Source of the DNA: Deroplatys truncata
Taxonomy: Eukaryota; Arthropoda; Insecta; Mantodea; Mantidae
DNA length: 64,000 nt
Assembly (NCBI GenBank): GCA_030765065.1
Contig: CM060990.1
Location: 280,639,341 to 280,703,340 of the forward strand
Direction: 5' to 3'
Part shown: positions 12,952-45,245 of the stretch, one piece after another
How positions within the stretch are numbered: the stretch's first letter is position 1
Layout: each line of letters starts with the position of its first letter
Made by a program: the position numbers and the translations under genes
The notes under the pieces: generated by a model
What the model was told of the DNA's origin: nothing
Databases searched by the model: none
Seen by the model: the letters and a program-made list of their open reading frames with translations, nothing else

Positions 12952-12992
<41 letters not shown>

Positions 12993-19692: not shown

Positions 19693-20464
19693 ATATCAGG
19701 ATCTGTTACTCATATGCTTTATACCAAGGGGGCTCGTTACTGTGAATATCGTTCATATCACTCCTGGGCTCGATACCCTGGTTCGTTTATCATATGCCTT
19801 ATTCCAAGGCAGGTCGTTGCTCGTTAAATCATTCTTTTTATCCTCCTTATCGGTTTTAGGCACGTGGGCAATGATTTTAGGGAGGAGAGATCTTCGGTAT
19901 TCGCAATACCACGCGACCAATGTTTTAGGAAGGAGGTGAGAGGGCGATCTTAAGAGTCTCTCGGCATTCCCACATGTGTTGTTAGTCGTAATAATTATAC
20001 ACGCGTAATAATCGTCTCCCTCACACACATATACGATGATAACCAGGTACGCGTGTCAATTCATATACACTTATTTACACTAATAAAATAAATACTTAAT
20101 CGTATTCATCGATCGCCGAGTAGCGTTTAATTGCATTAATCAAGATACATGCATTGGGAGGTTGCGTCCAACACTTTAGAGCCGCGATGTCTTGACGTTA
20201 GCAGTATAACCATCGATTCTTTTTTCAATAATGTTATGCATGAACGAACATTAAAGTTCGATACCAGGGTTCTTAGCCCCCTTTTTACAAAGCGACTCTT
20301 TTACTGGGAATATCGCTCATATCACGCCTACCGGAATTATGATGATGATGTTAGTCAGAGTTCGATACTCGGTTCAATCATTCTTTTTATCGCCCTTATC
20401 GCCCTTATCACATTGATGCTCGTACACAGTTACCCCACACCCCTGTTTATGATAAACACTCTGT
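19693..20464. repeat. Diverged direct repeats with B-box-like sites (right arm)
   Basis: Inverted counterpart of 6181-6965. GGTTCGTTTATCATATGCC and ATACCAAGGGGGCTCGTTAC are diverged repeat segments. No gene is supported. Confidence 0.5.
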
Positions 20465-20850
20465 AGCAGGATCGCGCGCGTGTCCAATAGACATATCATT
20501 AGCGGCTGTCATTAAAGGTTTATATATGTATCAGCACACATATCCATTAGACGTGTCACTAACGCCGGCCATTAGCGCTTACATATGTATTACCACGTAT
20601 ATCCATTAGCGGCGGTCATTAGCGACGGCCATTAGCGGTTACACATGTATTACCACGAATATCCATTAGCGACGGTCATTAGCGGTTACATATGTATTAC
20701 CACGAATATCCATTAGCGACGGTCGTTAGCGACGGTCGTTAGCGCCGGCCATTAGCGACGGTCAGTAGCTGTTACACATGTATTACAACGAATATCCATT
20801 AGCGACGGTCATTAGCTGTCACACATGTAATACTTGTTAACATGTGTAAT
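20465..20850 (-). repeat. Subterminal minisatellite of element 1 (right)
   Basis: Inverted counterpart of 5846-6180. Units contain CCATTAGCGACGGTCATTAG and GCGGTTACACATGTATTACC. The array has a slightly different copy number and arrangement from the left arm. Confidence 0.85.
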
Positions 20851-20901
20851 TACACGTGTTAGCACGTGTTTTTGAGCCAGCTCTGTCATTTATACTCTAC
20901 T

Positions 20902-20907
20902 GCGACC
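20902..20907. other. Target-site duplication GCGACC, right copy
   Basis: Direct repeat of 5800-5805, adjacent to the CTACT terminus of element 1. Confidence 0.75.
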
Positions 20908-21722
20908 ACATGGAGGGCGCGTTAGAATTGTGTACGAAGGTGACTGCCCTGCATCTGCATTGTAGGGTGTGTATTATTTATATTCCTATATAAAGACAAT
21001 TATAAAACAATGAATCTGCATGCAAAGGATAGAACATGCAAGAATATATCAATGTAAAGATCTGCTTTAACAAGAGATACATACCTGTGAAATGTTGATA
21101 CTTACTCTAATGTGAAAATGCCGCTGATTCTCTCAAAGAGCGTAGTATTTACTGCTTGTCCTTTAATTAGCATATGTTTACCAAATAGATTTTATTGAGT
21201 TACCGAGTATGTTCAGTTTTTCGTTTGGCTCGCTGTCTTTGTCGCTGTTTTTGGATATTGTTAAATAACCGTTAAAAGTGTTAAATCAATAGCACAATTG
21301 CTCACAACACATGCACAGATACACGGACTCAAACACATGTAAACACAAGGCAAATGACCGTACAAATAGGATGATGCAAAATAACTTGTCAGTACACAGG
21401 AAATCTCTAAACTGATATAAATACATTAAGCTGTGGCTAAAGGAAGCATTGTTTATAACTTCAGCTACAGCAGAAGATAAAAAATGCAGTTCATGTTACT
21501 GCAACGGTCGCTCGATAGGCCCGTCATGCTATTCACGTGTTACGGTATCGGCAGCAAGGTTTTCGCACCTACCGTATCTATAGAAACGTCTTAATTCTAA
21601 ATGGTGCTTCTAATCGTTGCTATGACGACCGCTATGACGTATCCATCCCCTCCCATTCATTTAAAGCTTTCCGCCACGTGATTAGTAACTGTCTATCACC
21701 TTCTTGCTTGACGCCGACTTTA

Positions 21723-23353
21723 GCTACAATAGTTTCTAAAAACCCATCAGAATATCTAAAAACACCCAAAGCCAATACAATGAAAATACCTGCTCCTATT
21801 TTGTAAAACCCATCTCAATGCTGTAAAAACCTGTGCCCATGCCTCATCCATAGCTAAATTACCTTAAACGAGGCCCTAATTCTCATACCCGTACCCTCAA
21901 AAATACCTGCATAAGTGTTAAAACTACCCTAAAAACAACATAAAGGAAACATTGCAAATGTTGTGAAAACCTTTAAGGCCTGTGCCAGTACGACGAAGTT
22001 ACCTACTCCAGTTTCCAGATTGCCTTTGAAACAACTGAAGTTCCCCTGCTCGTTTACCAGAATGTCCTGAAAGTCTCTCTCCATGCCTAAAATGCTCTGA
22101 AAATACTTACACCTGTGCCAAAGAAAAACCAAATTGGGTACTAACATGCGCTACAATTCCTTCTCCAATAGCTAAAATACCTTCGAAAATATTAAGAAAA
22201 TACAGTACAATTCCTGCACCAGTGTCCAAACTAACACCTTCGAAATTTCTACACCATACCCCAGCATAACCGTTTCGGAACCGAAAATATACGATAAAAC
22301 ACTAAGTTGTCTTCAAACCACCCCTGATATGCGGTAAAATACCTGCTCCAGTGCCCAGAGAGCCTGTAAAAGTGGTTACAATATCTTCAAAGAATCATGA
22401 TATGTACCAAGATATCCGGGGGGAAAGTGTTTCAGAACCGTAAATGCTTGTAAAAAAGCTTCCCAAAATAATTGTATCAGGGCCTTTAATATCTATAAAT
22501 ATTCTTGAAAGAGATGGAAAAATGCTCAAAATCACTATAACAATATGTCAATACTATAAAAACCTGAGCCAATACCTTGAAAACAGCTGCTCCTATTTGT
22601 AAAGCAAACCCTAAGAATCCCTCAGTAACTAGTGGTAATACCATGAAAATAGTTGCACTGAATGCTAAAATACCTTTGAAATATCTGAGATTATCCTGTC
22701 CGTGTTCAAAAAAGTCCTATATCCTGTAAAAGGTTTCTAAATGCCTATTCCACTGCATCAAAATACCCGCAAAGTAAGCTAAAGCAGCCCAAAAATAGAT
22801 TATAAGTGCCTCCAGAAACATCTATAGCTACACCAGTGTTGTAAGTACCTCCTAAACTATTTCACACCTCCCGAAAATATTCCTTATTACATTCAATCCC
22901 TGTCTAGCTTAGCATGTCTCCTCATTTTCCCTATTTCTCCCATATTTACGCATGTTTTACTCCTAACTCTGTTTAGCCTAGTATCTCTCCTCGTTTTCGC
23001 TATCTCTCCCATATGAAACGCACATTCCACCTTTCAAACCCTCTCTAGCATAGCATCTTTCCACGTTTTTCTATCTTTTCCAATAACAGCGCACATATCT
23101 CCGTACCAATACCATGAAAATACCTGATACAGCTTCTAAAAAAACCTTCAGAAATACCTAAACAAAGCAGTGCCAATGACATTAAAATACCTACATAAGT
23201 TTCTAAGTCACCTTCAGAATATTTCAAAAACCCAGTGCCATTACCATGAAAATACCTGTTCCTCTTTTTTAAATACCATCAGAATACTCTAAAAACTGTG
23301 CCCATGCCTCATGCATTGACTAAATTACCTAAAAAGAGCCCCAAATACCCCTT
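21723..23353 (+). repeat. Satellite array, block 2
   Basis: About one monomer plus flanks, in the same orientation and phase as block 1. The monomer landmark is at 22835. Subtracting complex 1, the distance from the landmark at 4471 is about 1.4 kb, the normal monomer length. The two blocks were therefore one continuous array before the insertion. Confidence 0.9.
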
Positions 23354-23359
23354 CCGGTA
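23354..23359. other. Target-site duplication CCGGTA, left copy
   Basis: CCGGTA precedes the AGTAGGG terminus and is repeated directly after the other terminus at 40681-40686. Uninterrupted satellite monomers carry this site once, for example CCGGTA in the segment near 2051. Confidence 0.85.
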
Positions 23360-23397
23360 AGTAGGGTAGGTAGGACAGACCTGGCCCACTTTTTGCG

Positions 23398-24665
23398 TTT
23401 ATATGGGAAAGGATAGGGAAAACGAGGGTGGATGCGGAGGAAAATGCGTTTATATGGGGAAGATAGGGACTACGAAGATCGATGCTAGGCTAGATAGAGG
23501 TTGAAGGAATGGGGATATGCCTTATATGAGAGATACGTGGAATACGAGGAGAAGTGTTAGACTAGATAGGATTTGAGATATGGAATATGCATTTATATGG
23601 GAAAGATAGGGAAAACGTGAACAGATGCTAGGATAGACAGATGCTGAAGCAGGGGAATATGAACATATATACAGGAGAGATAGGGGATACGTGGAGAGGT
23701 ACTAGACTATTCAGGGTTTGAAGGTAGAGTATGGCTTTTTATATGAAGAGACGAGGAAAACGAGGGTATATGCTAGGTTGAGAGAACCTTCAATGAGAGA
23801 AAAATGCGTTTATATGGGTGAGATAGGGAAAACGAGGAGAGTTCTGAGGTAGAGCAGGGACTGAAGGAGGGAGAGATATGCTTTATACGACAGAGATAGG
23901 GCATACGAGGGGAGGTGCTAGTGTAGACAGAGGTTAAGGAGTACGGTATACGATTATATGAGGAATATATGGAAAATGGGAACAGATGGTATGATAGACA
24001 GAAGCGGGGGCTACTTTTGCGTTTATATGGGGAGGGATAGGGAAAACGAGGGTAGATGCGACAGTTCAAGGAGGAAAATGCGTTTATAGGGGAGAGATAG
24101 GGAATACCAGGGCTGATGCTAGGCTAGTCAGATGCTAAAGGAGGGAGGGATACGCTTTATACGAGAGAGATAGGGAATACAAGGAAAGATGTTATACTAA
24201 ACAGGACTTGAAGGGTACAATATGGCGTTTTATATGAGCGAGATAGTGAAACGAGGAGAGGTATTAGGCTAGGAGTTTTGAATGATAGAGTAGGCGTTTA
24301 TATGTGAGAGATAGGGAATACGAGGGTCGATGCTAGGCTAGACAGGGTTGAAGTAGGGAATGCGTCTTATATGAGAGAGGTGGGGGAATATGAGGAGAAG
24401 TGTTAGGCTAGACAGGAAGGTCTGAATGACAGAGTATGCGTTTATATGGGAAAAGATAGGGAAAACGAAGGTAGGTGCTAGGTTGAGAGAGTCTTCAAGG
24501 AGGAAAATGCATTTATATGAGAGCGGTAGGGCATACGAGGAGAGGTGCTAGTCTAGACATGGTTTGAGGAGTAGAGTATACGTTTATATGGGAGAAATAT
24601 GGAAAACGGGAGAGATACAAGGATAAACAGGGGTTGAAGGAGGAGGAATGTAGGGTTATACGGCA
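23398..24665 (-). repeat. 70-bp subterminal minisatellite of element 2 (left)
   Basis: About 18 degenerate units of about 69-70 bp containing CGTTTATATGGGAGAGATAG and, about 25 bp further on, ACGAGGAGAGGTGCTAG. The array begins about 38 bp from the terminus. Its reverse complement (CTCTCCTCG, TCTCCCATATAAACGC) is the same 70-bp module that occurs in every satellite monomer around the element. Confidence 0.9.
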
Positions 24666-24883
24666 ATATAGAGAGTAATTCGATTATAAAACTTTTATCA
24701 TCCAGCGCCGCAACACTTTTATATACTTATTTTCTAATCCTTACAAACTTTATATATGTTAAACTAGTGCGCGAAACGGGGAGGGACAAACTGTATATCG
24801 GTTTACAGCGAAGTATACGTCCTAACCTATTCCCACCTTGTATGTTCTGAATCTTCTCATTGTCTATTCATTCCTAACATAAT
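24666..24883. other. Unassigned arm sequence
   Basis: AT-rich sequence between the minisatellite and the ACGTAAC block. I see no gene in it. Confidence 0.4.
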
Positions 24884-25085
24884 CACGTAACAAGACGTAA
24901 CCAACAAACGTAACCACGTAACACAACGTAACATAACAGCATGACAAGACGTCATACTAAGCAACATAAGCACGTAACCACGCAACATCACGTGACATCA
25001 CGTAACCAGAAACGTCACACGACGTAACAACACGTAGCAACTATGTAACCAAGTAACAAAACGTAAGAACAACACGTAACCAGCC
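24884..25085. repeat. ACGTAAC motif cluster (left arm)
   Basis: About 200 bp with more than ten copies of ACGTAAC or close variants (CACGTAAC, GACGTAAC, AACGTAAC) at irregular 8-20-bp spacing, plus CACGTGAC. The dense short motif looks like a protein-binding array, for example bZIP half sites, or a decayed short tandem repeat. Function is not shown. Confidence 0.6.
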
Positions 25086-25538
25086 CATTGCTAAGGTAAT
25101 CTAAGCTAATCCATCCTTCATAACTTAGACAATAAGTACGAGAACCTAGCCTAGATTAACCCGACCAATCCTAAACGTTCCTTTCATCATCTATTCTACT
25201 CAGTCATCGACTAACCTAATCTGGCTAACCAAAGATAACCTCAGCTTTCTTTTAGTGAAATTGCAATGTTTTATTCAGGTTTTATTATTCGAGAGTTTTA
25301 ATTGAAAAGTTTACGTCAACATACCTTTATTTTAGTTCGTTGTAGGCGTCTCTCCCCTTTTTATCTAGGCTTGAGACTAGCACTAGGATTGCTCCTAATG
25401 GCAGGGTTACCACCTCCCCTTCCATCTTCTTCTTTCTTCATCGGTCGTCAGCTAGCTGCATATACAGCACACGGATAACCTTCATTTTTTTAAGATTGTA
25501 GACTCACGAGAAAATCTTCATATTCGACTTACATTTTC
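25086..25538. other. Downstream flank of the left polymerase gene
   Basis: No gene seen. On the minus strand an AATAAA polyadenylation signal lies at about 25270-25275, roughly 265 bp after the polymerase stop codon. The right arm has the same signal at 38765-38770. Confidence 0.45.
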
Positions 25539-25820
25539 TTATGCACTACTTGTAATGCTGTAATGTCCATAGGCGTATGTCGTTATACCGTCCTCAGCAA
25601 TAATTCTTTTATCGCCGTATGGTGTCAATGTAATTTTATTCACTTGTACTGTGGCAAGAGCATGCTGTCGCGACAGGATCAGATTCATGGGCGTTCTGAT
25701 AATTTCTCTGGTTTTAAGGCAGTCAGTATAGCTCTCGAACGTGACGTACTGCTTAATAGCACTACGTTTTATACCTTTAATCTTTTTTATCATTGAACCG
25801 TCGATATCTAGGGCATACAT
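25539..25820 (-). pseudogene. Polymerase piece 4: C-terminal tail (left arm)
   Basis: A stretch of 93 codons beginning MYALDIDGS and containing IKGIKRSAIK, MNLILSRQHAL and YGDKRIIAEDGI...AYGHY. This is the usual C-terminal tail of arthropod DNA_pol_B_2 proteins and shows that the gene reaches its natural end. It is separated from the catalytic domain by the frame change near 25911. Confidence 0.8.
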
Positions 25821-25897
25821 TTTAGGTCGTAGCCCTACAAAGCGTTGAATGATTTTACCATTAGCCTCATCTTTAAATTTCCGAAGTACTTTCTTGT

Positions 25898-27415
25898 TTA
25901 GAGGTGAATAGCATATATGCTTGTAGGATAATCAGCAGTATCTAGGTGCTCAAGAAAACGTAGCTTATCCTGGTACACATCTTCAGTTGTAACACGATGA
26001 ATGAACGAATCAGTGTCCATATACATAAGCTTCAGGTTTTCAGCTCCATAATACGGTAGCAACACATCATAGTGATACCGGTACATTAATGTCTTGGAGA
26101 TATCCAACACACTCATACCGATGTATATAGGCTTGTTGAACACGATCTGTCGGGAGGCCATATGTACAGCAGCTAGATTAGAAGCATATATCATCCTGTC
26201 GACAAACGTTGGCTTTGCAATTAACTTTTCCAGAGTCTTCTCATTTGTCACCAGCCGTATATCCATACGATTACGCAGGTTCTCCATAGTTTTTCCGAAC
26301 ATAGCATTGTTGAACAATTTGTAGAGATCCTTCTCAAAATCATTTGAGGCCTGTTGTCGTAGTCTGTTGTTAAATTCCACATACGGTTTTAACCATCGAG
26401 ACTGTTGGAATTGTAGCACACGATGGATTTTTGTTAACCGTAGTCCATGATCAAGAGCTTGCTTCAACGCCATGTAATGTAGTACATACTTATTTCGAGG
26501 TCCTAGATGAGGTATCAGTTTCTTTGTAGGAGAGTCCTTAGGCGTCATACACTCAGGCAGGAAAGGTAGATCGTTGTGTAGATCGTGAAGTTCTGCAGGA
26601 TACTCGATGTCGACTTCTAATATGTAGCCGTAAGGATCATCTTCTTGTTGTCTTTCTAAGTCAATTTTTTCAGGCGATACGCACTCAAATCCACCATAAG
26701 GGAGAGCGTGACTCATTGCCCACCCATATTGGTTGTTGGCGTCTTCATAGGTAATAAATTGGGTTGGTCTCGACGGATCATACTTCTCCATGTAGGTGTT
26801 ATTAGCCTCTGCATAGCGGTGGGAAACTTGACATAAACTTCCTCTTATGCCAGATTCCACCATGAGTAATTGATCATAATCCTGTAACAATTCCAGCTGA
26901 ATTCCAGTGTACAGTAACATGGCATCCCATGTAAGTCCTGGAGAGGTAAAATAATGTGCAGGGTCGACTTTGTGTGTTTTAAGTGTTTGCTCCCTAAATG
27001 TCTCAAAGACAACAGCTAGGAGAAGCACATCAGAGATTAAGTAGAGGTCGCTGTACTCGCCCAGGTTTCTGACATTAAACAGCTCCCATACATTTTTAGC
27101 ATGATCGTAGTCAGCATCACTAATTTCCTCTTCATTTAATTTATTGTAGAAGGAGTCCTTAGGAGGTAAGCAGGTTTCGTTCAAGACGTCCCATGAAGTG
27201 ATGTAATCATAGGGAAATACACCCTTACGGGTCATCAACTTCAACTTGTCTTCTCCGAAGTACTTCAATGTTTCAGGGTACAATGTTAGATTTTTTACCA
27301 GCTTATCCAAGCTTGTACTCAGGAACCGAAAACTATCCACAAACCGGAGCTTTATATCTCCAACATACTTGGAGAATGATATATAGCTTTCTTCAGAGCT
27401 AGGAATTACTTCCAC
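25898..27415 (-). pseudogene. Polymerase piece 3: ExoIII and catalytic polymerase domain (left arm)
   Basis: An uninterrupted 505-codon stretch with YLISDV (ExoIII), then motif A (EDANNQYGWAM), motif B (FNNAMFGKTMENL) and motif C (YMDTDSF). The motif C aspartates and the motif B lysine are intact. Shortly after ExoIII this arm has Val where the right arm has Asp (LLLAVVFE against LLLADVFE). The stretch ends prematurely because of a frame change near 25911. It is the best-preserved polymerase segment in the window. Confidence 0.9.
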
Positions 27416-27512
27416 CCGCTCACTTGTACATCCCAGCTCCTTAACATGAAGTGTGAGTCATATCCACTGAGGTTGTGCATGAAGACAAGGATATATTTAG
27501 GTGTTTTGCAGG

Positions 27513-27824
27513 CTAAATTACATTCATTATGCAGACTCCCCGATATTCACCACTGATGTGATCATGGTCGCGTACTTTATAGTTCTCCTCAGTAAAGGTT
27601 TTTCCACACAAGTAGCATACTGTAGAGGCGCTGAAATCCAACTGCTGTTGATCTGTAAGTTTCAGGGGCATGACAGATTTGTATATATTATAAATCTCCT
27701 TTGCAAGGAATGACAGGTATTCCATAAACTTCTGAGCAGCATCAACACCACGATATATATAGGGATGCTTAGGAAGAACCAGTTTCCAGATGTTCAACGT
27801 TGTTTGATGGTTTAACGTAAACAC
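27513..27824 (-). pseudogene. Polymerase piece 2: endonuclease VII-like HNH segment (left arm)
   Basis: A short open stretch in a second frame, carrying CYLCGKTF at 27595-27618 followed by VRDHDHISGEYRG at about 27536-27574. Cys-x2-Cys, Asp-His-Asp-His and Gly-x2-Arg-Gly are the hallmarks of the recombination endonuclease VII fold. It lies between ExoI and ExoII, so it is inserted in or next to the exonuclease domain and is not a separate gene. A frame change near 27536 interrupts its second half. Confidence 0.8.
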
Positions 27825-29190
27825 AGAAGCTCATTGCTGTGTGCTCTTGATAAAGGGTTGTATAGGAAGTTTCAGGACAGGGAATACACGTATGACATGG
27901 AGTGAGGATACTCTCAAAATCCGCATAGATGACGTAAGGTAGTTTCAACATCCTTTCAAAATTTTTAAACTGTACAATTGATTTGTCCTTTGTAGGCATA
28001 ACTACCCTTGCAACACCATGCTGATTGCAGATGACTGCATGTTCTTCCAGTTTTTCCAGCCCACTTCGGCCATATCGGTTGTCAAAATGTGTAAAGCACC
28101 GCTTACAGGTATATATCACTCCATCATGCTTAGTTTTTTGACGTCGAACGAGCTTCTCAAAATTCTTGATATATACATAGTGATGTTTTCCACTACTGTC
28201 ACTCAATAGCAGGAGGTCACAGTGGTCAGGTAGTTCAGTGTCAGCAACCTTTATCGGATACACTTCATGCTTCTCATCCAGGCCGAAAACGTTGATAGAC
28301 ATCCTATTAAGCTTCTCGAATTTAGGTATTTGAGAAAGCGGAGTAGGATAGGAAACACAGCTGAAGTCGTACTTATCTTGATGTTTCTTATATTTGCTCA
28401 CCCGTTGGGCATTCTTTCCTATGAATTTAGCTAATACAGAGTACATAAAGCATAGCTCATCAGTTAAATTCTGGATGTTAATGCAGGCTTTTCTTGCTTC
28501 AACAGATGGCGGTAGTGGTATGTAGCTACTTCCTCGTAACGGGTTGAACTTGTTGATACGAAGGCGCACCCCTTCCACAGCAAGCAGAGCCCAGTTGCTT
28601 CCCTTTAGTTGTGATTCCTCCATTTCAGTAACCAATTTCTTCATTTTGGTTTCCAGCATAGAGTCCAGATCCGTTTCTAGGAAAACAGCTTGATTTCTGG
28701 TTTTAAATGTCTTGTCACAGGTTTCTCCGATACTGTTACCAAATCTACACTCAGCTAACAGATTAATTTTCAAACTCTTTTGAATACCAAGCTCTTTATG
28801 CACAGCTTGGATTATCCGCTGTTTTGCTTCATGCAGGTATATATTCAGATCCTTAGTTGATTCACATCGTATAAAATACGATTTCAAGCGTCCATGGAAT
28901 GAAGTTTCATATTCTTTCATGTCACACTCCTCCATCGTAGATAACAACTCTTGCTTTGACGGTTCTAATCTACGTTTCTTCTCAGGTCTGTTTATTTCAC
29001 ACGCATCTTCGTGTCGACGACCCTTATAACTATCTTTGAAGGCTACATTACAATATTTACACTTGAAGAGCTTTTTACAACGTAGCTCATGTCGTCTTTT
29101 ATCATATCCACGGAGGAACTTCTTACAGCATTTACCACAAGAATATCCCGAGATACTAGGAATGATATCCTTATACGAGGACTTATTCAT
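27769..29190 (-). pseudogene. Polymerase piece 1: zinc fingers to ExoI (left arm)
   Basis: Longest N-terminal open stretch, about 473 codons from the first ATG. It begins with two Cys-x2-Cys...His finger-like units (CGKCCKKF...HELRC and CKYCNVAF...HEDAC) over about residues 18-65. The TSFHGRL and IYLHEAK block is near residues 96-125, and a hydrophobic INIQNL/ELCFMYSVLAKFIG block is near residue 265. A second Cys/His cluster (CKRCFTHF...HAVIC) then precedes ExoI YADFES. The ExoI aspartate and glutamate are both present. Confidence 0.85.
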
Positions 29191-29234
29191 TTTTCTTCTT
29201 GATATAATAAGGTATTTACTTTTCTTCAACGAAA

Positions 29235-29745
29235 TGTCCGTCTCTTCACCTTGATATCACTTAGAAAGCTGATTATTTTCTGAGAGAACAGCGATGTTAA
29301 CACCTCGGAGATACCTAGCAGAATGAACTCAAATGTCAGAGATCCTGCTATTTATAGAGGAAGCACGAACCTTTATGCATCAATTATATAACGTATTAAC
29401 CCTTCTTCAAGGAAATGTACTCTTCTTCACGTTGATAACACTTTAGATTATTTTCTGAGAGAACAGCGATGTTAACACCTCAGAGATGATCAACAGAATG
29501 AATTTCAATGCTAGAGGTTGCTCTATTTATAGAGGAAGCACGAACCTTTATGCATCAATTATATAACGTATTAACCCTTCTTCAAGGAAATGTACTCTTC
29601 TTCACATTGATAACACTTTAGATTATTTTCTGAGAGAACGATGTTAACACCTCAGAAATGATCAACAGAATGAATTTCAATACTCAAGTTCGCTCTATTT
29701 ATAGAGAAAGCACGAACCTTTTTTTAATCAATTATATCCTGATTA
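29235..29745 (-). promoter_or_regulatory. Triplicated TATA promoter upstream of the polymerase (left arm)
   Basis: Three tandem copies of a 172-175-bp unit. Each has a TATAAATA box on the minus strand (29349-29356, 29524-29531, 29696-29703) followed about 25-30 bp later by a TTCATTCTG initiator-like site. The copy nearest the gene puts its TATA box about 160 bp before the first ATG. This is the mirror of 34296-34806. Confidence 0.7.
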
Positions 29746-29989
29746 TTAATACTAAAAACGGTGATGAAGCGTGTAAGCTCTTATATATTTCAATTCGTGT
29801 TACACTGATGTTCGAGCGTCTCCGTATAGCTTCGTATGCTTAGAGAGAAAGTGTAAAGTATTGTGAAGATGTTATGTATTGTTCGGCTATAATCGTACAG
29901 ATTCGGAGAGCTTGACTGGTGAAGGTGATGAACGATCCGTCGACCGAGCAGGAGGCAAGCATTCCCTTCGCGCGACGAAACCTAGATGC
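29746..29989. other. Unassigned arm sequence
   Basis: Sequence between the promoter repeats and the 150-bp tandem units. No gene is recognised. Confidence 0.4.
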
Positions 29990-30348
29990 AAAAGAAAGAA
30001 AATCGTGATAGATGAGAAACCACCCAGACATTCGCCTGCAGACCATGGAAAACCATGAAAAAATATGTCAGAGTGAGCGTCCAACGGAACTCGAACCAGG
30101 GACTCTAAAAGCACACGTGAAAGATACAAATTATATAGAATGAAAGGAAATCGGTGACGATGAGAAACCACTCCAGCATTCGCCTGCAGACCAGGGAAAA
30201 CCCTAAAAAATATGATGTCAGAGTGATCAACCAACAGGAATCAAACAAAAGACCTTAGAAGCATATAGGTTAAGATGTAAATCAAATAAAAGTGCAATAA
30301 AATCGTGCTAGATGAGAAACCACCCAGGCATTCGCCTACAGACCAGGC
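29990..30348 (-). repeat. About 150-bp SINE-like tandem units (left arm, about 3 copies)
   Basis: Units contain GATGAGAAACCACCCAGACA, TTCGCCTGCAGACCA and, in one copy, GGAACTCGAACCAGG, which is an inverted B-box-like sequence. On the minus strand the order is GGTTCGAGTTCC, then GGTTTTCC, then GGCGAATG. That resembles tails of insect tRNA-derived SINEs, but I cannot name a family. The right arm has a longer array. Confidence 0.55.
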
Positions 30349-30352
30349 AGAC

Positions 30353-31437
30353 AGGATGACTTTGTATTCAGGTCACTGGTTTCAATCCTAGTCCTCCAGC
30401 TCGACTTGGAACAACAATCAATAACGAGCTACAATCCAAGGATATAATCGGTAATAATAAAAAAAAATTTTTTTGATAAAGACTGTCAAATAAAAAGCTC
30501 TGTAAACGTATGTATTTCCCCTCACTTCCCCTCTTCCCCCACCCCACAGTAGAAATATTATACCGATTCCAGAACAATGGGCTATTGTTCTGATCAGAAC
30601 AAAGGAATTAATGACCTATTGTTCTGACTTCAAGCCCCGCCCCCTCCCTTTGAGGGCTTAGATGCCGCCTGGTAGCGCGTGCTACAAGCCCCGCACCCTC
30701 CCTTTGTGGGCTTACCTAATGCCGCCGGTCACGTGCTGGCGGCCATCCCTCCCCCACCCCTTCCCTTGTGACCTCATCCTTAAAAGTTACTGGATCCCCG
30801 ATCCCCCCTACCCTATCCTTTCTAATCCTATCCCGTACTGGGCACGACCTCTCTTTGCTCTACTGTCAGGCCCTCTAGAGGGGGTGTAACCACTTCCCCT
30901 CTTTGTAGCCTGACCTAATGCTGGCCTCGGTATTGGAGAACAATGGGCTATTGTTCAAATCGCCTAAGCCAGCGTTGGAGTAGAGCAGCGAGGAGGGGGC
31001 ATCGTGGTCCTAAAGATTTTAAGGGTGAAACCACAAAGGTTAAGTGTTTTCACGCCTTTCCTTTTGTGTGCTATTCTTTCACCGCAAATCAGAGACACAG
31101 GACAATGCATTATTGTTCTCATCGTAAATGGCGGTGTCGGAATAGCAAAAAGCGGGTGTGGGGAGTCGACTGCATAAAAGAAACGAACTTATCAGTCGGC
31201 GGCATCGGCTTTGAAGCTGCGTATCGGTATAATATTTCTACTGTGGGGTGGGGGAAGAGGGGAAGTGAGGGGAAATCCATACGTTTACAGAGCTTTTTAT
31301 TTGACGGTCTTTATCAAAAAATTGTTTTTTTATTATTACCGATTATATCCTTGGATTGTAGCTCGTTATTGATTGTTGTTCCAAGTCGGGCTGGAGGACT
31401 AGGATTGAATCCAGTGACCTGAATACAAAGTCATCCT
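30353..31437. mobile_element. Inverted-repeat element in the spacer of palindrome 2
   Basis: A 1,085-bp unit with about 212-bp inverted ends, starting AGGATGACTTTGTATTCAGG and ending with its complement. Flanking bases do not form an obvious target duplication. The interior has GC-rich repeats (AAGCCCCGC...CCCTCCCTTTG near 30632 and 30688) and several GAACAAT...ATTGTTC hairpins. The open frames inside are inverted-repeat sequence with no family signature. It abuts the end of the left arm. Confidence 0.6.
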
Positions 31438-31923
31438 CGAATAAAATAAAAAAGTAATTAAAAATAAAATGGTGAACGTACGATATTACATTTATATCAG
31501 CAACTAATTTCTTTGTTATGTATATTTGGACATCTGTCATCCTGACGAATATTATATCTCTTAGATGAATGTATATTTAAATGGTATAGTGAGCGTAAAT
31601 AACTAGATTACGTAAAACGCTGACGAGCGCTGCAGCTGTATAAGCTCGACACTGTATTAGGTCCGACCCTTACGGCGTGCTGTGCCGTACTGGCGGTTTC
31701 GGCTAGCTCTCAGCGCCTCATGAAGCCGGCCTTTCATCCCTACCTTACTCCGTCCAGGTGCCGCCCCTCAGCCGCCTTTCGCAAGCCTTCTCCTCTCCGC
31801 CAGCTGATGCTACCTTCCTTACCTACATGTAAGGTACGCTTCTAAAAGACGACTGAAGCGGCCATGTTAGCTTTTCAATACATGAAGACAGTCATTATAG
31901 TTGTTAACGTTCGCTTTGGTTTT
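31438..31923. other. Spacer sequence without a recognised gene
   Basis: AT-rich, with a GC-rich island at about 31615-31850. No coding or RNA feature that I can support. Confidence 0.4.
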
Positions 31924-32814
31924 AAAAGAAATTTAAAAATAGATTGCAAGACATTATCTTTAACAAAGGAAGTCTTAAAAACGAAAATATAACAATCTTT
32001 ATACTAAATACAAATAACGGTCATGGCAGCTTTAAAAATGTAGATACTTTAAGCTAAAAAAATACAATACATTTATTAAAACATTTCCTGATTCGATTCT
32101 ATAAGCTAAAAATCGGAGTAAATCTGAAAAAAATTATTACTCGTAATTACGGGCAAATGCAGCGGTTTTTTTTAAAAAAATAAACGAACATTAAAACGTA
32201 TAAAAATGCGTATTGTACACTGATTTTTTGAAGAATGAGAGGAAGAAATTATTGAAAAAATCACAAAATAATAGGGTATATACATGAATTGAATTAAATA
32301 AGGGCGGAAAAACTTCTACGCTATTTCCAAAGTATTTCAACGATGAAATCTTAGATTATCTTTGCAAAAGAAATTTAAAAATTAGATTGCAAGACATTAT
32401 CTTTAACAAAGGAAGTCTTAAAAATGAAAATATAACAATCTTTATACTAAATACAAATAACGGTCATGGCAGCTTTAAAAATGTAGATACTTTAAGCTAA
32501 AAAAATACAATACATTTATTAAAACATTTCCTAATTCGATTCTACAAGCTACACATCTGAGTAAATCTGAAAAAAAAATTATTGCTCGTAATTACGGGCA
32601 AATGCAGCGGTTTTAAAAATAAACGAACATTAAAACGTATAAAAATGCATATTGTACACTGATTTTTTGATGAATGATTGAGATGAGAGGAAGAAATTAT
32701 TGAAAAAATCACTAAATAATAGGGTATATACATGAATTTTAATTAAATAAGGGCTGAAAAACTTCTACGCTATTTCCAAAGTATTTCAACGATGAAATCT
32801 TAGATTATCTTTGC
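31924..32814 (+). repeat. 440-bp tandem duplication at the centre of palindrome 2
   Basis: Two direct copies (31924-32365 and 32366-32814), each beginning AAAAGAAATTTAAAAAT and ending TTAGATTATCTTTGC. They differ by small indels in A/T runs. The geometric centre of the element (about 32020) lies in the first copy. No coding content. Confidence 0.85.
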
Positions 32815-33059
32815 GAGCGTAGTGAGTACGTTGGTATGAAACTTCTGTATATGCTTCTCTTGTTTATGAGATGGCTAAATGTGCGTGTCTCGACATGTCT
32901 GCGATAGTCAAACTGTCCCCGACTGTGACGTCATATGGTGAAAGTTAACACGTATAAGCATGTCGACTGCGAATGAGGTCTGTTTTTACTGTTTTGTTCA
33001 GTTAATAACGGCAGCACTTTGCATTCGAGAGCTTTCGGATTCGATCCCCGTAGGGACGA
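32815..33059. other. Spacer sequence without a recognised gene
   Basis: Contains GGATTCGATCCCC near 33028-33040, a B-box-like site, shortly before the SINE-like tandem units. No A box or tRNA fold is seen. Confidence 0.35.
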
Positions 33060-34052
33060 GCACTCTGGCCTTACGTTTCTCGCGATTTTCGCTGGTATGC
33101 TGCCTAATGCTGTAGTGGTATTTGCTATCACGATTCCCTTTCAAACCATTTTATTTGTATTTTCACGTGAATTTCTAGGGTTCAGGGGTTAGATTTCCAT
33201 CGATTGTTTACTCTGATCACGGATCTTTTCATGGTTTTCGATGGTCTGCTGTCGAATGCTGTAGTGGTATTTGCTATCATGATTCCATTTCAATCCAATT
33301 TATTTTGTATTTTTACACGTGAATTTCTAGGGTTCAGGGGTTAGATTTCAACCAATTGTTTACTCTGATCGCGAATCTTTTCATGGTTTTCACTGGTCTG
33401 CTGTTGAATGCTGTAGTGGTACTTGCTATCACGATTCCCTTTCAATTGTATCTTTTTTTGTCTCTAGAGACCTTTTGTTTGATTTCCCTGTCGGTCGCAC
33501 ACTCTATCCGTCAGTCGCTCAGCCATTTGATTTTTTTTCTTGGTTTCCCCTGGTCTGCAGGCGAATGCCTGAGTGGGTTCTCATATATCGCGATTTTCTT
33601 TCATTTGCAACTTTATGCTTCTAGAGTAATCTGATGGTTTCCCTCGTTCGATTGTCGTTGGTTGTTTACTCTGACATATTTTTCATGGTTTTGCCTGGTC
33701 TGTAGGCGACTGTCTGGGTGGTTTCTCATCTAGCATGATTTTATTGCATTTTTATTTGATTTACATCTTAACCTATATGCTTCTAAGGTCTTTTGTTTGA
33801 TTCCTGTTGGTTGATCACTCTGACATCATATTTTTTAGGGTTTTCCCTGGTCTGCAGGCGAATGCTGGAGTGGTTTCTCATCGTCACCGATTTCCTTTCA
33901 TTCTATATAATTTGTATCTTTCACGTGTGCTTTTAGAGTCCCTGGTTCGAGTTCCGTTGGACGCTCACTCTGACATATTTTTTCATGGTTTTCCATGGTC
34001 TGCAGGCGAATGTCTGGGTGGTTTCTCATCTATCACGATTTTCTTTCTTTTG
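33060..34052 (+). repeat. SINE-like tandem units (right side, about 8 copies)
   Basis: Tandem 120-150-bp units sharing TTTTCATGGTTTTC, GGTCTGC.G.CGAATG and a GTGGTTTCTCATC or GTGGTATTTGCTATC block. Outer units match the left arm (33693 onward); inner units (33060-33692) are diverged and lie only on this side. CCTGGTTCGAGTTCC near 33942 is B-box-like. Confidence 0.7.
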
Positions 34053-34295
34053 CATCTAGGTTTCGTCGCGCGAAGGGAATGCTTGCCTCCTGCTCGGTCG
34101 ACGGATCGTTCATCACCTTCACCAGTCAAGCTCTCCGAATCTGTACGATTATAGCCGAACAATACATAACATCTTCACAATACTTTACACTTTCTCTCTA
34201 AGCATACGAAGCTATACGGAGACGCTCGAACATCAGTGTAACACGAATTGAAATATATAAGAGCTTACACGCTTCATCACCGTTTTTAGTATTAA

Positions 34296-34806
34296 TAATC
34301 AGGATATAATTGATTAAAAAAAGGTTCGTGCTTTCTCTATAAATAGAGCGAACTTGAGTATTGAAATTCATTCTGTTGATCATTTCTGAGGTGTTAACAT
34401 CGTTCTCTCAGAAAATAATCTAAAGTGTTATCAATGTGAAGAAGAGTACATTTCCTTGAAGAAGGGTTAATACGTTATATAATTGATGCATAAAGGTTCG
34501 TGCTTCCTCTATAAATAGAGCAACCTCTAGCATTGAAATTCATTCTGTTGATCATCTCTGAGGTGTTAACATCGCTGTTCTCTCAGAAAATAATCTAAAG
34601 TGTTATCAACGTGAAGAAGAGTACATTTCCTTGAAGAAGGGTTAATACGTTATATAATTGATGCATAAAGGTTCGTGCTTCCTCTATAAATAGCAGGATC
34701 TCTGACATTTGAGTTCATTCTGCTAGGTATCTCCGAGGTGTTAACATCGCTGTTCTCTCAGAAAATAATCAGCTTTCTAAGTGATATCAAGGTGAAGAGA
34801 CGGACA
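34296..34806 (+). promoter_or_regulatory. Triplicated TATA promoter upstream of the polymerase (right arm)
   Basis: TATAAATA boxes at 34338-34345, 34510-34517 and 34685-34692, each in a 172-175-bp tandem unit. The unit also holds AAAGGTTCGTGCTT just upstream, TTCATTCTG about 28 bp downstream, then GAGGTGTTAACATCG and CTCTCAGAAAATAATC. The third copy reads into the polymerase start at 34851. Confidence 0.7.
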
Positions 34807-34850
34807 TTTCGTTGAAGAAAAGTAAATACCTTATTATATCAAGAAGAAAA

Positions 34851-36272
34851 ATGAATAAGTCCTCGTATAAGGATATCATTCCTAGTATCTCGGGATATTC
34901 TTGTGGTAAATGCTGTAAGAAGTTCCTCCGTGGATATGATAAAAGACGACATGAGCTACGTTGTAAAAAGCTCTTCAAGTGTAAATATTGTAATGTAGCC
35001 TTCAAAGATAGTTATAAGGGTCGTCGACACGAAGATGCGTGTGAAATAAACAGACCTGAGAAGAAACGTAGATTAGAACCGTCAAAGCAAGAGTTGTTAT
35101 CTACGATGGAGGAGTGTGACATGAAAGAATATGAAACTTCATTCCATGGACGCTTGAAATCGTATTTTATACGATGTGAATCAACTAAGGATCTGAATAT
35201 ATACCTGCATGAAGCAAAACAGCGGATAATCCAAGCTGTGCATAAAGAGCTTGGTATTCAAAAGAGTTTGAAAATTAATCTGTTAGCTGAGTGTAGATTT
35301 GGTAACAGTATCGGAGAAACCTGTGACAAGACATTTAAAACCAGAAATCAAGCTGTTTTCCTAGAAACGGATCTGGACTCTATGCTGGAAACCAAAATGA
35401 AGAAATTGGTTACTGAAATGGAGGAATCACAACTAAAGGGAAGCAACTGGGCTCTGCTTGCTGTGGAAGGGGTGCGCCTTCGTATCAACAAGTTCAACCC
35501 GTTACGAGGAAGTAGCTACATACCACTACCGCCATCTGTTGAAGCAAGAAAAGCCTGCATTAACATCCAGAATTTAACTGATGAGCTATGCTTTATGTAC
35601 TCTGTATTAGCTAAATTCATAGGAAAGAATGCCCAACGGGTGAGCAAATATAAGAAACATCAAGATAAGTACGACTTCAGCTGTGTTTCCTATCCTACTC
35701 CGCTTTCTCAAATACCTAAATTCGAGAAGCTTAATAGGATGTCTATCAACGTTTTCGGCCTGGATGAGAAGCATGAAGTGTATCCGATAAAGGTTGCTGA
35801 CACTGAACTACCTGACCACTGTGACCTCCTGCTATTGAGTGACAGTAGTGGAAAACATCACTATGTATATATCAAGAATTTTGAGAAGCTCGTTCGACGT
35901 CAAAAAACTAAGCATGATGGAGTGATATATACCTGTAAGCGGTGCTTTACACATTTTGACAACCGATATGGCCGAAGTGGGCTGGAAAAACTGGAAGAAC
36001 ATGCAGTCATCTGCAATCAGCATGGTGTTGCAAGGGTAGTTATGCCTACAAAGGACAAATCAATTGTACAGTTTAAAAATTTTGAAAGGATGTTGAAACT
36101 ACCTTACGTCATCTATGCGGATTTTGAGAGTATCCTCACTCCATGTCATACGTGTATTCCCTGTCCTGAAACTTCCTATACAACCCTTTATCAAGAGCAC
36201 ACAGCAATGAGCTTCTGTGTTTACGTTAAACCATCAAACAACGTTGAACATCTGGAAACTGGTTCTTCCTAA
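34851..36272 (+). pseudogene. Polymerase piece 1: zinc fingers to ExoI (right arm)
   Basis: Open N-terminal stretch, identical or nearly so to the left-arm piece. It starts at the first ATG (MNKSSYKD), 39 bases inside a longer open frame that begins at a TTG. Zinc-finger-like pairs, the FHGRL block and ExoI are all present. Confidence 0.85.
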
Positions 36273-36528
36273 GCATCCCTATATATATCGTGGTGTTGAT
36301 GCTGCTCAGAAGTTTATGGAATACCTGTCATTCCTTGCAAAGGAGATTTATAATATATACAAATCTGTCATGCCCCTGAAACTTACAGATCAACAGCAGT
36401 TGGATTTCAGCGCCTCTACAGTATGCTACTTGTGTGGAAAAACCTTTACTGAGGAGAACTATAAAGTACGCGACCATGATCACATCAGTGGTGAATATCG
36501 GGGAGTCTGCATAATGAATGTAATTTAG
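36217..36528 (+). pseudogene. Polymerase piece 2: endonuclease VII-like HNH segment (right arm)
   Basis: Carries CYLCGKTF and VRDHDHISGEYRG as in the left arm, in the second frame, and ends at a TAG created by the shared frame change near 36505. Confidence 0.8.
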
Positions 36529-36625
36529 CCTGCAAAACACCTAAATATATCCCTGTCTTCATGCACAACCTCAGTGGATATGACTCACACTTCATGTTAA
36601 GGAGCTGGGATGTACAAGTGAGCGG

Positions 36626-37384
36626 GTGGAAGTAATTCCTAGCTCTGAAGAAAGCTATATATCATTCTCCAAGTATGTTGGAGATATAAAGCTCCGGTTT
36701 GTGGATAGTTTTCGGTTCCTGAGTACAAGCTTGGATAAGCTGGTAAAAAATCTAACATCGTACCCTGAAACATTGAAGTACTTCGGAGAAGACAAGTTGA
36801 AGTTGATGACCCGTAAGGGTGTACTTCCCTATGATTACAGCACTTCATGGGACGTCTTGAACGAAACCTGCTTACCTCCTAAGGACTCCTTCTACAATGA
36901 ATTAAATGAAGAGGAAATTAGTGATGCTGACTACGATCATGCTAAAAATGTATGGGAGCTGTTTAATGTCAGAAACCTGGGCGAGTACAGCGACCTCTAC
37001 TTAATCTCTGATGTGCTTCTCCTAGCTGATGTCTTTGAGACATTTAGGGAGCAAACACTTAAAACACACAAAGTCGACCCTGCACATTATTTTACCTCTC
37101 CAGGACTTACATGGGATGCCATGTTACTGTACACTGGAATTCAGCTGGAATTGTTACAGGATTATGATCAATTACTCATGGTGGAATCTGGCATAAGAGG
37201 AGGTTTATGTCAAGTTTCCCACCGCTATGCAGAGGCTAATAACACCTACATGGAGAAGTATGATCCGTCGAGACCAACCCAATTTATTACCTATGAAGAC
37301 GCCAACAACCAATATGGGTGGGCAATGAGTCACGCTCTCCCTTATGGTGGATTTGAGTGCGTATCGCCTGAAAAATTGACTTAG
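36626..37384 (+). pseudogene. Polymerase piece 3a: ExoIII and motif A (right arm)
   Basis: Open for about 252 codons with ExoIII (YLISDVLLLADVFE, Asp retained) and motif A (EDANNQYGWAM). It is cut by the arm-specific one-base loss in an A run before 37382. Confidence 0.85.
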
Positions 37385-37491
37385 AAAGACTACAAGAAGA
37401 TGATCCTTACGGCTACATATTAGAAGTCGACATCGAGTATCCTGCAGAACTTCACGATCTACACAACGATCTACCTTTCCTGCCTGAGTGT

Positions 37492-37890
37492 ATGACGCCT
37501 AAGGACTCTCCTACAAAGAAACTGATACCTCATCTAGGACCTCGAAATAAGTATGTACTACATTACATGGCGTTGAAGCAAGCTCTTGATCATGGACTAC
37601 GGTTAACAAAATTCCATCGTGTGCTACAATTCCAACAGTCTCGATGGTTAAAACCGTATGTGGAATTTAACAACAGACTACGACAACAGGCCTCAAATGA
37701 TTTTGAGAAGGATCTCTACAAATTGTTCAACAATGCTATGTTCGGAAAAACTATGGAGAACCTGCGTAAACGTATGGATATACGGCTGGTGGCAAATGAG
37801 AAGACTCTGGAAAAGTTAACTGCAAAGCCAACGTTTATCGACAGGATGATATATGCTTCTAATCTAGCTGCTGTACATATGGCCTCCTGA
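37492..37890 (+). pseudogene. Polymerase piece 3b: motif B (right arm)
   Basis: Contains FNNAMFGKTMENL (motif B). It ends at an in-frame TGA in the place of an Arg codon of the left arm, consistent with a CpG transition. Confidence 0.85.
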
Positions 37891-38142
37891 CAGATCGTGT
37901 TCAACAAGCCTATATACATCGGTATGAGTGTGTTGGATATCTCCAAGACATTAATGTACCGGTATCACTATGATGTGTTGCTACCGTATTATGGAGCTGA
38001 AAACCTGAAGCTTATGTATATGGACACTGATTCGTTCATTCATCGTGTTACAACTGAAGATGTGTACCAGGATAAGCTACGTTTTCTTGAGCACCTAGAT
38101 ACTGCTGATTATCCTACAAGCATATATGCTATTCACCTCTAA
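37891..38142 (+). pseudogene. Polymerase piece 3c: motif C (right arm)
   Basis: Same frame as piece 3b, after the TGA. It holds motif C, YMDTDSF, with both aspartates, and ends at the shared frame change near 38130. Confidence 0.85.
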
Positions 38143-38219
38143 ACAAGAAGGTACTTGGGAAATTTAAAAATGAGGCTAATGGTAAAATCATTCAACGCTT
38201 TGTAGGGCTACGACCGAAA

Positions 38220-38501
38220 ATATATGCCCTAGATATCGACGGTTCAATGATAAAAAAGATTAAAGGTATAAAACGTAGTGCTATTAAGCAGTACGTCACG
38301 TTCGAGAGCTATACTGACTGCCTTAAAACCAGAGAAATTATCAGAATGCCCATGAATCTGATCCTGTCGCGACAGCATGCTCTTGCCACAGTACAAGTGA
38401 ATAAAATTACATTGACACCATACGGCGATAAAAGAATTATTGCTGAGGACGGTATAACGACATACGCCTATGGACATTACAGCATTACAAGTAGTGCATA
38501 A
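38220..38501 (+). pseudogene. Polymerase piece 4: C-terminal tail (right arm)
   Basis: Mirror of 25539-25820. It contains IKGIKRSAIK and the AEDGI...AYGHY end. An ATG codon at the left-arm equivalent position reads ATA here. Confidence 0.8.
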
Positions 38502-38956
38502 GAGAATGTAAGTCGAATATGAAGATTTTCTCGTGAGTCTACAATCTTAAAAAAATGAAGGTTATCCGTGTGCTGTATATGCAGCTAGCTGACGACCGAT
38601 GAAGAAAGAAGAAGATGGAAGGGGAGGTGGTAACCCTGCCATTAGGAGCAATCCTAGTGCTAGTCTCAAGCCTAGATAAAAAGGGGAGAGACGCCTACAA
38701 CGAACTAAAATAAAGGTATGTTGACGTAAACTTTTCAATTAAAACTCTCGAATAATAAAACCTGAATAAAACATTGCAATTTCACTAAAAGAAAGCTGAG
38801 GTTATCTTTGGTTAGCCAGATTAGGTTAGTCGATGACTGAGTAGAATAGATGATGAAAGGAACGTTTAGGATTGGTCGGGTTAATCTAGGCTAGGTTCTC
38901 GTACTTATTGTCTAAGTTATGAAGGATGGATTAGCTTAGATTACCTTAGCAATGGG
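38502..38956. other. Downstream flank of the right polymerase gene
   Basis: No gene. AATAAA at 38765-38770, about 265 bp after the stop, is a candidate polyadenylation signal. Confidence 0.45.
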
Positions 38957-39157
38957 CTGGTTACGTGTTGTTCTTACGTTTTGTTACTTGGTTACATAGT
39001 TGCTACGTGTTGTTACGTCGTGTGACGTTTCTGGTTACGTGATGTCACGTGATGTTGCGTGGTTACGTGCTTATGTTGCTTAGTATGACGTCTTGTCATG
39101 CTGTTATGTTACGTTGTGTTACGTGGTTACGTTTGTTGGTTACGTCTTGTTACGTGA
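38957..39157. repeat. GTTACGT motif cluster (right arm)
   Basis: Mirror of 24884-25085. More than ten GTTACGT-like heptamers in about 200 bp. Confidence 0.6.
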
Positions 39158-39375
39158 TTATGTTAGGAATGAATAGACAATGAGAAGATTCAGAACATAC
39201 AAGGTGGGAATAGGTTAGGACGTATACTTCGCTGTAAACCGATATACAGTTTGTCCCTCCCCGTTTCGCGCACTAGTTTAACATATATAAAGTTTGTAAG
39301 GATTAGAAAATAAGTATATAAAAGTGTTGCGGCGCTGGATGATAAAAGTTTTATAATCGAATTACTCTCTATATT

Positions 39376-40643
39376 GCCGTATAACCCTACATTCCTCCTC
39401 CTTCAACCCCTGTTTATCCTTGTATCTCTCCCGTTTTCCATATTTCTCCCATATAAACGTATACTCTACTCCTCAAACCATGTCTAGACTAGCACCTCTC
39501 CTCGTATGCCCTACCGCTCTCATATAAATGCATTTTCCTCCTTGAAGACTCTCTCAACCTAGCACCTACCTTCGTTTTCCCTATCTTTTCCCATATAAAC
39601 GCATACTCTGTCATTCAGACCTTCCTGTCTAGCCTAACACTTCTCCTCATATTCCCCCACCTCTCTCATATAAGACGCATTCCCTACTTCAACCCTGTCT
39701 AGTCTAGCATCGACCCTCGTATTCCCTATCTCTCACATATAAACGCCTACTCTATCATTCAAAACTCCTAGCCTAATACCTCTCCTCGTTTCACTATCTC
39801 GCTCATATAAAACGCCATATTCTACCCTTCAAGTCCTGTTTAGTATAACATCTTTCCTTGTATTCCCTATCTCTCTCGTATAAAGCGTATCCCTCCCTCC
39901 TTTAGCATCTGACTAGCCTAGCATCAGCCCTGGTATTCCCTATCTCTCCCCTATAAACGCATTTTCCTCCTTGAACTGTCGCATCTACCCTCGTTTTCCC
40001 TATCCCTCCCCATATAAACGCAAAAGTAGCCCCCGCTTCTGTCTATCATACCATCTGTTCCCATTTTCCATATATTCCTCATATAATCGTATACCGTACT
40101 CCTTAACCTCTGTCTACACTAGCACCTCCCCTCGTATGCCCTATCTCTGTCGTATAAAGCATATCTCTCCCTCCTTCAGTCCCTGCTCTACCTCAGAACT
40201 CTCCTCGTTTTCCCTATCTCACCCATATAAACGCATTTTTCTCTCATTGAAGGTTCTCTCAACCTAGCATATACCCTCGTTTTCCTCGTCTCTTCATATA
40301 AAAAGCCATACTCTACCTTCAAACCCTGAATAGTCTAGTACCTCTCCACGTATCCCCTATCTCTCCTGTATATATGTTCATATTCCCCTGCTTCAGCATC
40401 TGTCTATCCTAGCATCTGTTCACGTTTTCCCTATCTTTCCCATATAAATGCATATTCCATATCTCAAATCCTATCTAGTCTAACACTTCTCCTCGTATTC
40501 CACGTATCTCTCATATAAGGCATATCCCCATTCCTTCAACCTCTATCTAGCCTAGCATCGATCCTCGTAGTCCCTATCTTCCCCATATAAACGCATTTTC
40601 CTCCGCATCCACCCTCGTTTTCCCTATCCTTTCCCATATAAAC
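39376..40643 (+). repeat. 70-bp subterminal minisatellite of element 2 (right)
   Basis: Mirror of 23398-24665. On this strand units read CCTAGCACCTCTCCTCG, then CCCTATCTCTCCCATATAAA, matching the satellite module in the same orientation as the flanking array. Module spacing is 69 bp (for example 39488, 39557, 39626), close to the 70-bp spacing in satellite monomers (3113, 3183, 3253). Confidence 0.9.
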
Positions 40644-40680
40644 GCAAAAAGTGGGCCAGGTCTGTCCTACCTACCCTACT

Positions 40681-40686
40681 CCGGTA
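40681..40686. other. Target-site duplication CCGGTA, right copy
   Basis: Direct repeat of 23354-23359, after which the satellite continues in phase. Confidence 0.85.
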
Positions 40687-44382: not shown

Positions 44383-44522
44383 TACACACTGTCGTTTGTG
44401 AAAATTGCAAAACTAAGAAAAATACGCATGAATTCAATGAATTTAATACCACAGGTTAGGTACATGACAAGTAAATAATGATAAACTTTTCAAATCTATA
44501 CATGACCTTTAAGGTCTAATTT

Positions 44523-45237: not shown

Positions 45238-45245
45238 ACACTGTG

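Follow-up and report, generated by a model that had tools for sequence, protein, structure and literature searches.

Long palindromes in DNA are usually unstable, and they have mostly been regarded as accidents or as errors of assembly. Palindromic deletion forms are known from adenovirus (the symmetric recombinants) and from yeast (the hairpin plasmids derived from pGKL). Foldback elements, too, carry very long inverted repeats and, within them, tandem repeats; they are not known to have a PolB, and their duplication is of another length. The closest described systems to the one considered here are the Polintons, or Mavericks; in vertebrates, according to one account (PMC8097293), these have terminal inverted repeats (TIRs) of 46-1,447 bp, 6-bp target-site duplications and an intact size of 12.7-24.6 kb, and their gene modules mostly face the centre, the exceptions being those of the cane toad and the western clawed frog. 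The 64,000-nucleotide stretch of the mantis Deroplatys truncata analysed here (positions 280,639,341 to 280,703,340 of contig CM060990.1; hereafter the window) contains, at 23360-40680, an element named E2 that is probably a decayed member of an amplified, Polinton/Maverick-derived family whose genome is itself a palindrome. In its fullest copy read this family is about 19.2 kb long: two arms of about 9.4 kb, each with one outward-facing polB gene, enclose about 0.5 kb of centre.

The left outer arm of E2 (23360-30349, plus strand, with the terminus AGTAGGGTAGGTAGGACAGACC) matches its inverted right outer arm (33692-40680, minus strand) at 99.59% identity over 6,990 columns in a self-BLAST of the window, and direct alignment resolves the arm-to-arm differences into 28 substitutions and one 1-base gap. 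Both ends start with AGTAGGGTAGG, their outermost 60 bases are identical, and the motif CCGGTA stands on either side of the element (23354-23359 and 40681-40686). In nine further units of the satellite around E2, which align over its joined flanks, this site occurs only once, i.e., E2 is a true insertion into one satellite unit, accompanied by a 6-bp duplication. The initial annotation, made from the letters of the window, had claimed the duplication, the perfect inverted ends starting with AG, the 7.0-kb arms and the outward polymerase gene in each of them, all of which hold; it had also placed a 3.3-kb spacer between the arms, which does not stand as the original layout, and it left a second palindrome of the window, E1 (5806-20901), unmentioned. 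The segments 30353-30567 (plus strand) and 31223-31437 (minus strand) are inverted copies of each other at 97.2% identity and form the inner ends of the E2 palindrome, with the turning point of the arms in the latter. Because of this inner inversion, and because sequence equivalent to 31438-33691 is present in both arms of the fullest other copy read, the spacer is secondary, the left arm having lost about 2.25 kb by a deletion at 30349/30353. The segment 31438-33691 (minus strand) is right-arm sequence without a left-arm counterpart, including a tandem pair of about 450 bp (31924-32814), and the true centre is the 655 bp at 30568-31222, which E2 has in common with two other copies at 89-96% identity. 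A small transposon nested at 30353-31437 was also considered, and was ruled out when comparison with other copies identified this region as the centre of the palindrome.

To follow the family through the genome, the 4.29-Gb assembly from which the window was taken (818 contigs) was searched with the terminal 1,001 bp of E2. With 40 of the 6,384 first-look candidates scored, the terminus has at least 40 full-length matches at 95-100% identity and one partial match. Paired by hand, these give at least 15 inverted pairs with 9.0-19.4 kb between their ends, one of them E2, and leave 10 single ends. Of the other 14, ten (c1 to c10) were read inward from each terminus, one of them over its entire length and nine in two pieces, and the remaining four through short samples and one half read. 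A perfect 6-bp duplication flanks each of the 14, all of them distinct and none being CCGGTA, so that with E2 the duplication is found in 15/15 two-ended elements; AGTAG starts both ends of all 15, four ends lying 1-2 bases off the AGTAGGGTA/AGTAGGATA types. The first inverted match, from c1 to c10, measures 7.1, 9.4, 7.7, 6.3, 5.2, 7.3, 7.5, 1.8, 1.4 and 7.9 kb, with 98.1-99.7% identity; in c6 and c7 a second inverted match extends to about 9.1-9.5 kb, and in all four sampled copies, stretches of the two arms about 4.5-5.2 kb inside the element are 98.6-100% identical. Of the copies read, c2 is the fullest at 19,237 bp, 97.2% of which is made up by its arms of 9,365 and 9,331 bp. Further copies lack sequence in one arm, or at the centre or close to it, where long palindromes typically suffer deletions. 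About 3.4 kb is missing from one arm of c8, whereas c9, 9.0 kb long and with one polB, consists of one arm that aligns for 7,390 bp, then about 170 bp, then the other 1.4-kb terminal repeat; c9 is read as a deletion derivative because it aligns over 7.4 kb with the same arm. The genome search for complete copies and insertion sites that had been proposed with the initial annotation thus yielded 14 more pairs, each at a different duplication, and these rule out a lone rearranged copy. Nor are the other copies all ordinary Polintons with short TIRs, as the annotation had allowed they might be: in 12 of the 14 (13/15 with E2), inverted sequence is found 4.5 kb or more inside the ends. The inverted repeats measure 7.0 kb in E2; among c1 to c10 they range over 5.2-9.4 kb in eight and fall to 1.8 and 1.4 kb only in the remaining two.

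In E2, c2, c6, c7 and a copy on contig C12, the turn of the arms falls within about 90 bp (E2 equivalents 31172-31258). Two types of centre are found, one in E2, c2 and the C12 copy (89-96% identity), the other, in opposite orientation, in c6 and c7 (97.8%). Since independent accidents would not give a turn common to five elements together with shared centres, the comparison indicates that the palindrome itself is inherited, not remade for each copy. The initial annotation had offered two readings of E2, a palindromic class of its own or a head-to-head dimer that arose through an accident of replication. The first reading is supported by the 14 further pairs, five elements with a common turn and the shared centres; the second probably describes the origin of the family, but not that of each copy, because the copies have their turning point and centres in common. 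It follows that recurrent dead-end accidents, in which each palindrome would have been newly formed from an ordinary Polinton and inserted once, are an improbable explanation, even though the symmetric defective genomes of adenovirus offer a parallel. Such accidents would account for the near-identity of the arms within an element, for the presence in the window of E1, which is unlike E2 in DNA sequence, for the two centre types and for the one short-TIR copy with a single polB; against them stand the turning point common to five elements, the one centre common to three, and the 13/15 complete pairs with deep inversion.

The polB genes of E2 read outward, the left one at 25539-29256 (minus strand) in four open pieces and the right one at 34785-38501 (plus strand). 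A 175-bp tandem repeat lies upstream of the left gene (29271-29737, with a mirror copy at 34304-34770). One left-arm piece matches PF03175 (E 7e-20) in Pfam, another matches Endonuclease_7 at 2.9e-4, just under the Pfam cut-off, and the right-arm pieces are 97-100% identical to the left in tblastn. Three frame breaks are common to both arms, to which the right arm adds a 1-base deletion near 37376 and a stop at 37888; besides that deletion, the codons of the two arms differ by 16 replacements, 1 stop and 2 silent changes. Judged by their frames, both copies are dead. When the predicted model of the main piece (mean predicted local distance difference test score, pLDDT, of 80) was compared with PDB structures, the DNA polymerase of phi29, a protein-primed enzyme, took ranks 1-8, with a TM-score of 0.42-0.47 and a root-mean-square deviation of 8.0-8.9, which suggests a phi29-like fold; the sole match in a PDB sequence search was Hpy99I (E 0.076). 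The 23 aligned polB relatives have 47-72% identity, and the named hits come mostly from insects and spiders, and also from a mussel and a brittle star. Of the 18 arms of nine copies, five contain a frame that stays open for 1,200 residues or more and is identified as polB, and the ratio of nonsynonymous to synonymous substitution rates was 0.18-0.35 in nine between-element comparisons of these five frames, which were picked for their openness and give comparisons that are not independent. The gene shows purifying selection between elements and probably worked during the spread of the family.

No other gene was recognised in E2, as the initial annotation had also reported of the remaining Polinton genes. 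When the 181 open reading frames (ORFs) of 19 related contigs were compared with the window, 189 of the 191 matches fell within the two polB genes and 2 at a remnant in E1. Neither this comparison nor a Pfam scan of the E2 and E1 ORFs, which did not take in all of the short ones, revealed a capsid, protease or packaging ATPase gene in the window, and the same scan placed no other E2 or E1 ORF in a Pfam family above the cut-off. An integrase gave no tblastn match in the window, in c1 to c10, or in half of one further copy. From these searches polB appears to be the sole recognisable gene of E2. The left-hand pieces of nine copies contain 33 ORFs of at least 90 residues starting with ATG, of which 10 are not polB; five of these 10 reappear in one or two other copies.

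The family thus resembles Polintons/Mavericks in its 6-bp duplications, its AG/AGT ends and its protein-primed PolB, and the lengths of E2 and the fuller copies fall within the intact Maverick range of PMC8097293. It departs from the Mavericks described there in having TIRs of up to 9.4 kb and two outward polB genes per element, and from Polintons/Mavericks in general in that no integrase, capsid, protease or ATPase gene was found; it appears to be Polinton-derived, yet without an integrase of its own, capsid genes or short TIRs. The adenovirus and pGKL forms likewise have one genome end duplicated in inverted orientation around a short centre, with both ends active, but they are replication by-products, whereas the E2 family is chromosomal, amplified and shows selection on its polB. 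PolB proteins related to that of E2 occur in bidnaviruses (PMC4061559) and on the IMG/VR contigs L001 and L002. On L001 the polB and integrase genes are convergent, and both contigs have a single polB, several other genes and no long palindrome in the stretches compared. These two viral-contig loci were found with a polB alignment, a single polB protein having given no match, and the terminus pattern was found in none of the viral contigs. A scan of prokaryote genomes added 17 contigs from bacterial and archaeal metagenome bins (L003-L019) encoding the same type of PolB at 35-48% identity; the DNA of these contigs is probably of eukaryotic or viral origin. The 19 related contigs show no long inverted arms, most stretches being under 8 kb and too short to show any; their longest inverted matches are 76 bp at 100% (L005) and 268 bp at 81% (L017). 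A palindromic Polinton family was likewise absent from the literature searched, a search outside which most subscription papers fall.

The very long inverted repeats and internal tandem repeats of E2 also resemble those of foldback elements, and a foldback-like DNA transposon, not a Polinton, could have captured a polB gene. The long arms with their subterminal tandem repeats, and an element in which no integrase is found, would suit such an origin. It is nevertheless quite unlikely, given that the 6-bp duplications at 15/15 sites, the AGTAG ends and the constrained phi29-like polymerase are Polinton traits.

The likeness of the arms was followed by comparing the terminal 1.3 kb within and between elements. 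Identity is 99.08-100% within an element (mean 99.55%, n=11) and 88.81-99.15% between elements (mean 96.91%, n=220), and for 20/22 arms the nearest relative is the other arm of the same element, i.e., the arms evolve together within an element. The differences between the E2 arms are clustered, leaving a difference-free gap of 2,804 bp (P ~1e-5, 200,000 draws), and in E1, with the ACAT array set aside, the corresponding gap is 2,405 bp (reached in 0 of 50,000 draws); in both palindromes the gaps look as tracts of gene conversion would. These conversion-like blocks would also be expected if TIRs had grown in place, with break repair or gene conversion starting from the TIRs of ordinary inserted elements and copying one half over the other while the duplication stayed intact. 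That course of events is very unlikely, as it would not explain a turning point and centre shared across unlinked sites, and both copies with short arms can be aligned to portions of one and the same arm. An assembly artefact of the foldback-chimera type, which might be suspected because long palindromes are difficult to assemble, is rejected with near certainty on the 29 arm differences of E2, the ~3-4% divergence of the outermost E1 arms and the matching duplications at all 15 sites, and there is no N in the c1 to c10 pieces.

Elsewhere in the genome, a search with the integrase of L001 gave 126 matches at 26-33% identity, many of them in open frames of 309 residues; one match that was read out (277 residues) is an rve integrase (PF00665, 7.7e-10). 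These genes are putative Polinton integrases, by their resemblance to such proteins and by one locus, on contig C72, at which a 309-residue integrase gene and a polB end are convergent neighbours, as in L001. The C72 locus (G000:C72:158405-167236) is itself an inverted duplication, with 99.2% identity in the integrase part and 98.3% in the polB-end part. Its inverted part ends inside polB, AGTAG was not found in the 3 kb searched, and at 4/4 other integrase loci no partner was found in the 1.9-kb windows where one was expected. A general family of integrase-bearing palindromes was rejected because the C72 inversion ends inside polB, AGTAG was not found in the 3 kb searched there, and the windows at these four loci held no partner.

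The palindromic family would have arisen from an ordinary Polinton by a snap-back during its protein-primed replication, which doubled the polB end and dropped the rest. The resulting palindrome would be replicated by the PolB that it encodes, starting at its two identical ends; a displaced strand could form a long hairpin, and copying and repair of this hairpin into a symmetric duplex would keep the arms alike. For insertion it would depend on other elements, whose retroviral-type integrase would act in trans. Once inserted, the copies would decay by mutation and by loss of sequence from one arm or close to the centre, with some arm-to-arm gene conversion. A more tentative proposal, which may possibly be right, is that the family is a self-complementary replicon: a half genome of terminus, polB and hairpin turn would replicate by folding, its chromosomal palindrome being the double-length form, and it would depend, satellite-like, on complete Polintons for an integrase and perhaps for a capsid, with packaging keeping it near unit length. 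If true, the presence of several unrelated palindromic lineages (the E1 group and the pairs with E1-type ends, see below) would make this a recurrent lifestyle. An inherited palindrome would mean that a DNA element has spread with the palindrome as its heritable form, and the family would offer a natural test of snap-back in protein-primed genomes, of how arms stay alike and of a polymerase-only life off other Polintons. Similar giant elements may hide where short-read assemblies collapse palindromes.

Several points weigh against descent from one inherited palindrome and against the mechanism just outlined. The scoring of candidates favoured copies that match the whole 1,001-bp terminus, and so disfavoured relatives with short TIRs, and the 10 single ends lie outside the pair analysis. 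Deletions have removed the centre in some copies, and the turn is visible in five elements only; the two centre types may mean that the palindrome formed repeatedly, or that the centre has been exchanged. Taken alone, c9 would also fit the ordinary layout of short TIRs and a single polB. Both arms of c7 have an arm of another element as their nearest relative, in a tie at 99.08%, and the choice of polB frames mentioned above tells in the same direction. Replication and integration are both inferred, and the supply of integrase in trans is deduced from finding none in the window or in the copies searched. A genome search for the ATPase, run with no positive control, also gave no match that would point to complete ordinary Polintons there.

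The second palindrome of the window, E1, has ends AGTAGGGTATAAATG and AGTAGAGTATAAATG, 7.2-kb arms and a flanking duplication of GCGACC (5800-5805 and 20902-20907). Its left arm (5806-12954, plus strand, terminus AGTAGGGTATAAATGAGAGAGC) and its right arm (13629-20901, minus strand) are 96.7% identical over the 7.2-kb main match, and they diverge most at very long ACAT-type arrays (6968-8283 and 18301-19689). Each arm holds a 25-residue outward polB remnant (profile E 6e-6), in a frame at 15350-15454 (plus strand) with its mirror copy at 11129-11233 (minus strand). In the centre (12955-13628), an N-terminal polB fragment at 13137-13541 (plus strand) is only suggested, with a phmmer E of 5e-4 (the best of 121 sequences), a profile E of 0.25 and an insignificant second search. 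E1 gave no blastn match to the right half of E2 or to pieces of three copies, the first 29 bases are 76% like those of E2, and E1 belongs to another palindromic group, distinct from that of E2. Its terminus has many relatives in the genome, which by eye form nine candidate inverted pairs 5.7-45 kb apart. Five of these were sampled 3.0-4.2 kb from the ends: one had no inverted match and four were inverted, at 99.6%, 96.8%, 92.7% and 100% identity, the last over 133 bp only. Read by eye, the duplications of the five agree at 6/6 positions in one pair and 5/6 in two, and were unreadable in two others. The pairs at 96.8% and 92.7% do not match the E1 interior. Two pairs with E1-type ends, G000:C2:139907056-139924277 and C16:378594601-378616176, have sampled arms unlike that interior and are possibly further palindromic groups. 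Around an E1-type pair at G000:C3:5756538-5772422, more than 20 copies of the E1 subterminal repeat are arrayed.

The satellite around E2 occupies positions 1-4750, 21721-23359, 40687-44384 and 51740-57280 of the window, in units of about 1.4-1.5 kb as estimated from self-match offsets. Its 71-bp repeats are ~70-80% identical to the subterminal repeats of about 70 bp in the left (23391-24640, plus strand) and right (39400-40649, minus strand) arms of E2; either the satellite was derived from such termini or satellite sequence was carried by the element. Adjoining E1, an apparent small inverted-repeat element with ends TACCCCCGCCGTTGAA was noted by eye at 4757-5727. Long ORFs at 44637-51466 resemble pieces of a non-long-terminal-repeat (non-LTR) retrotransposon and of a Tc1-like transposase, from motifs that we take to be of these types; one of 320 residues, non-LTR-like, is 34-41% identical to proteins of Haliotis and Araneus and 59% identical to one further protein.

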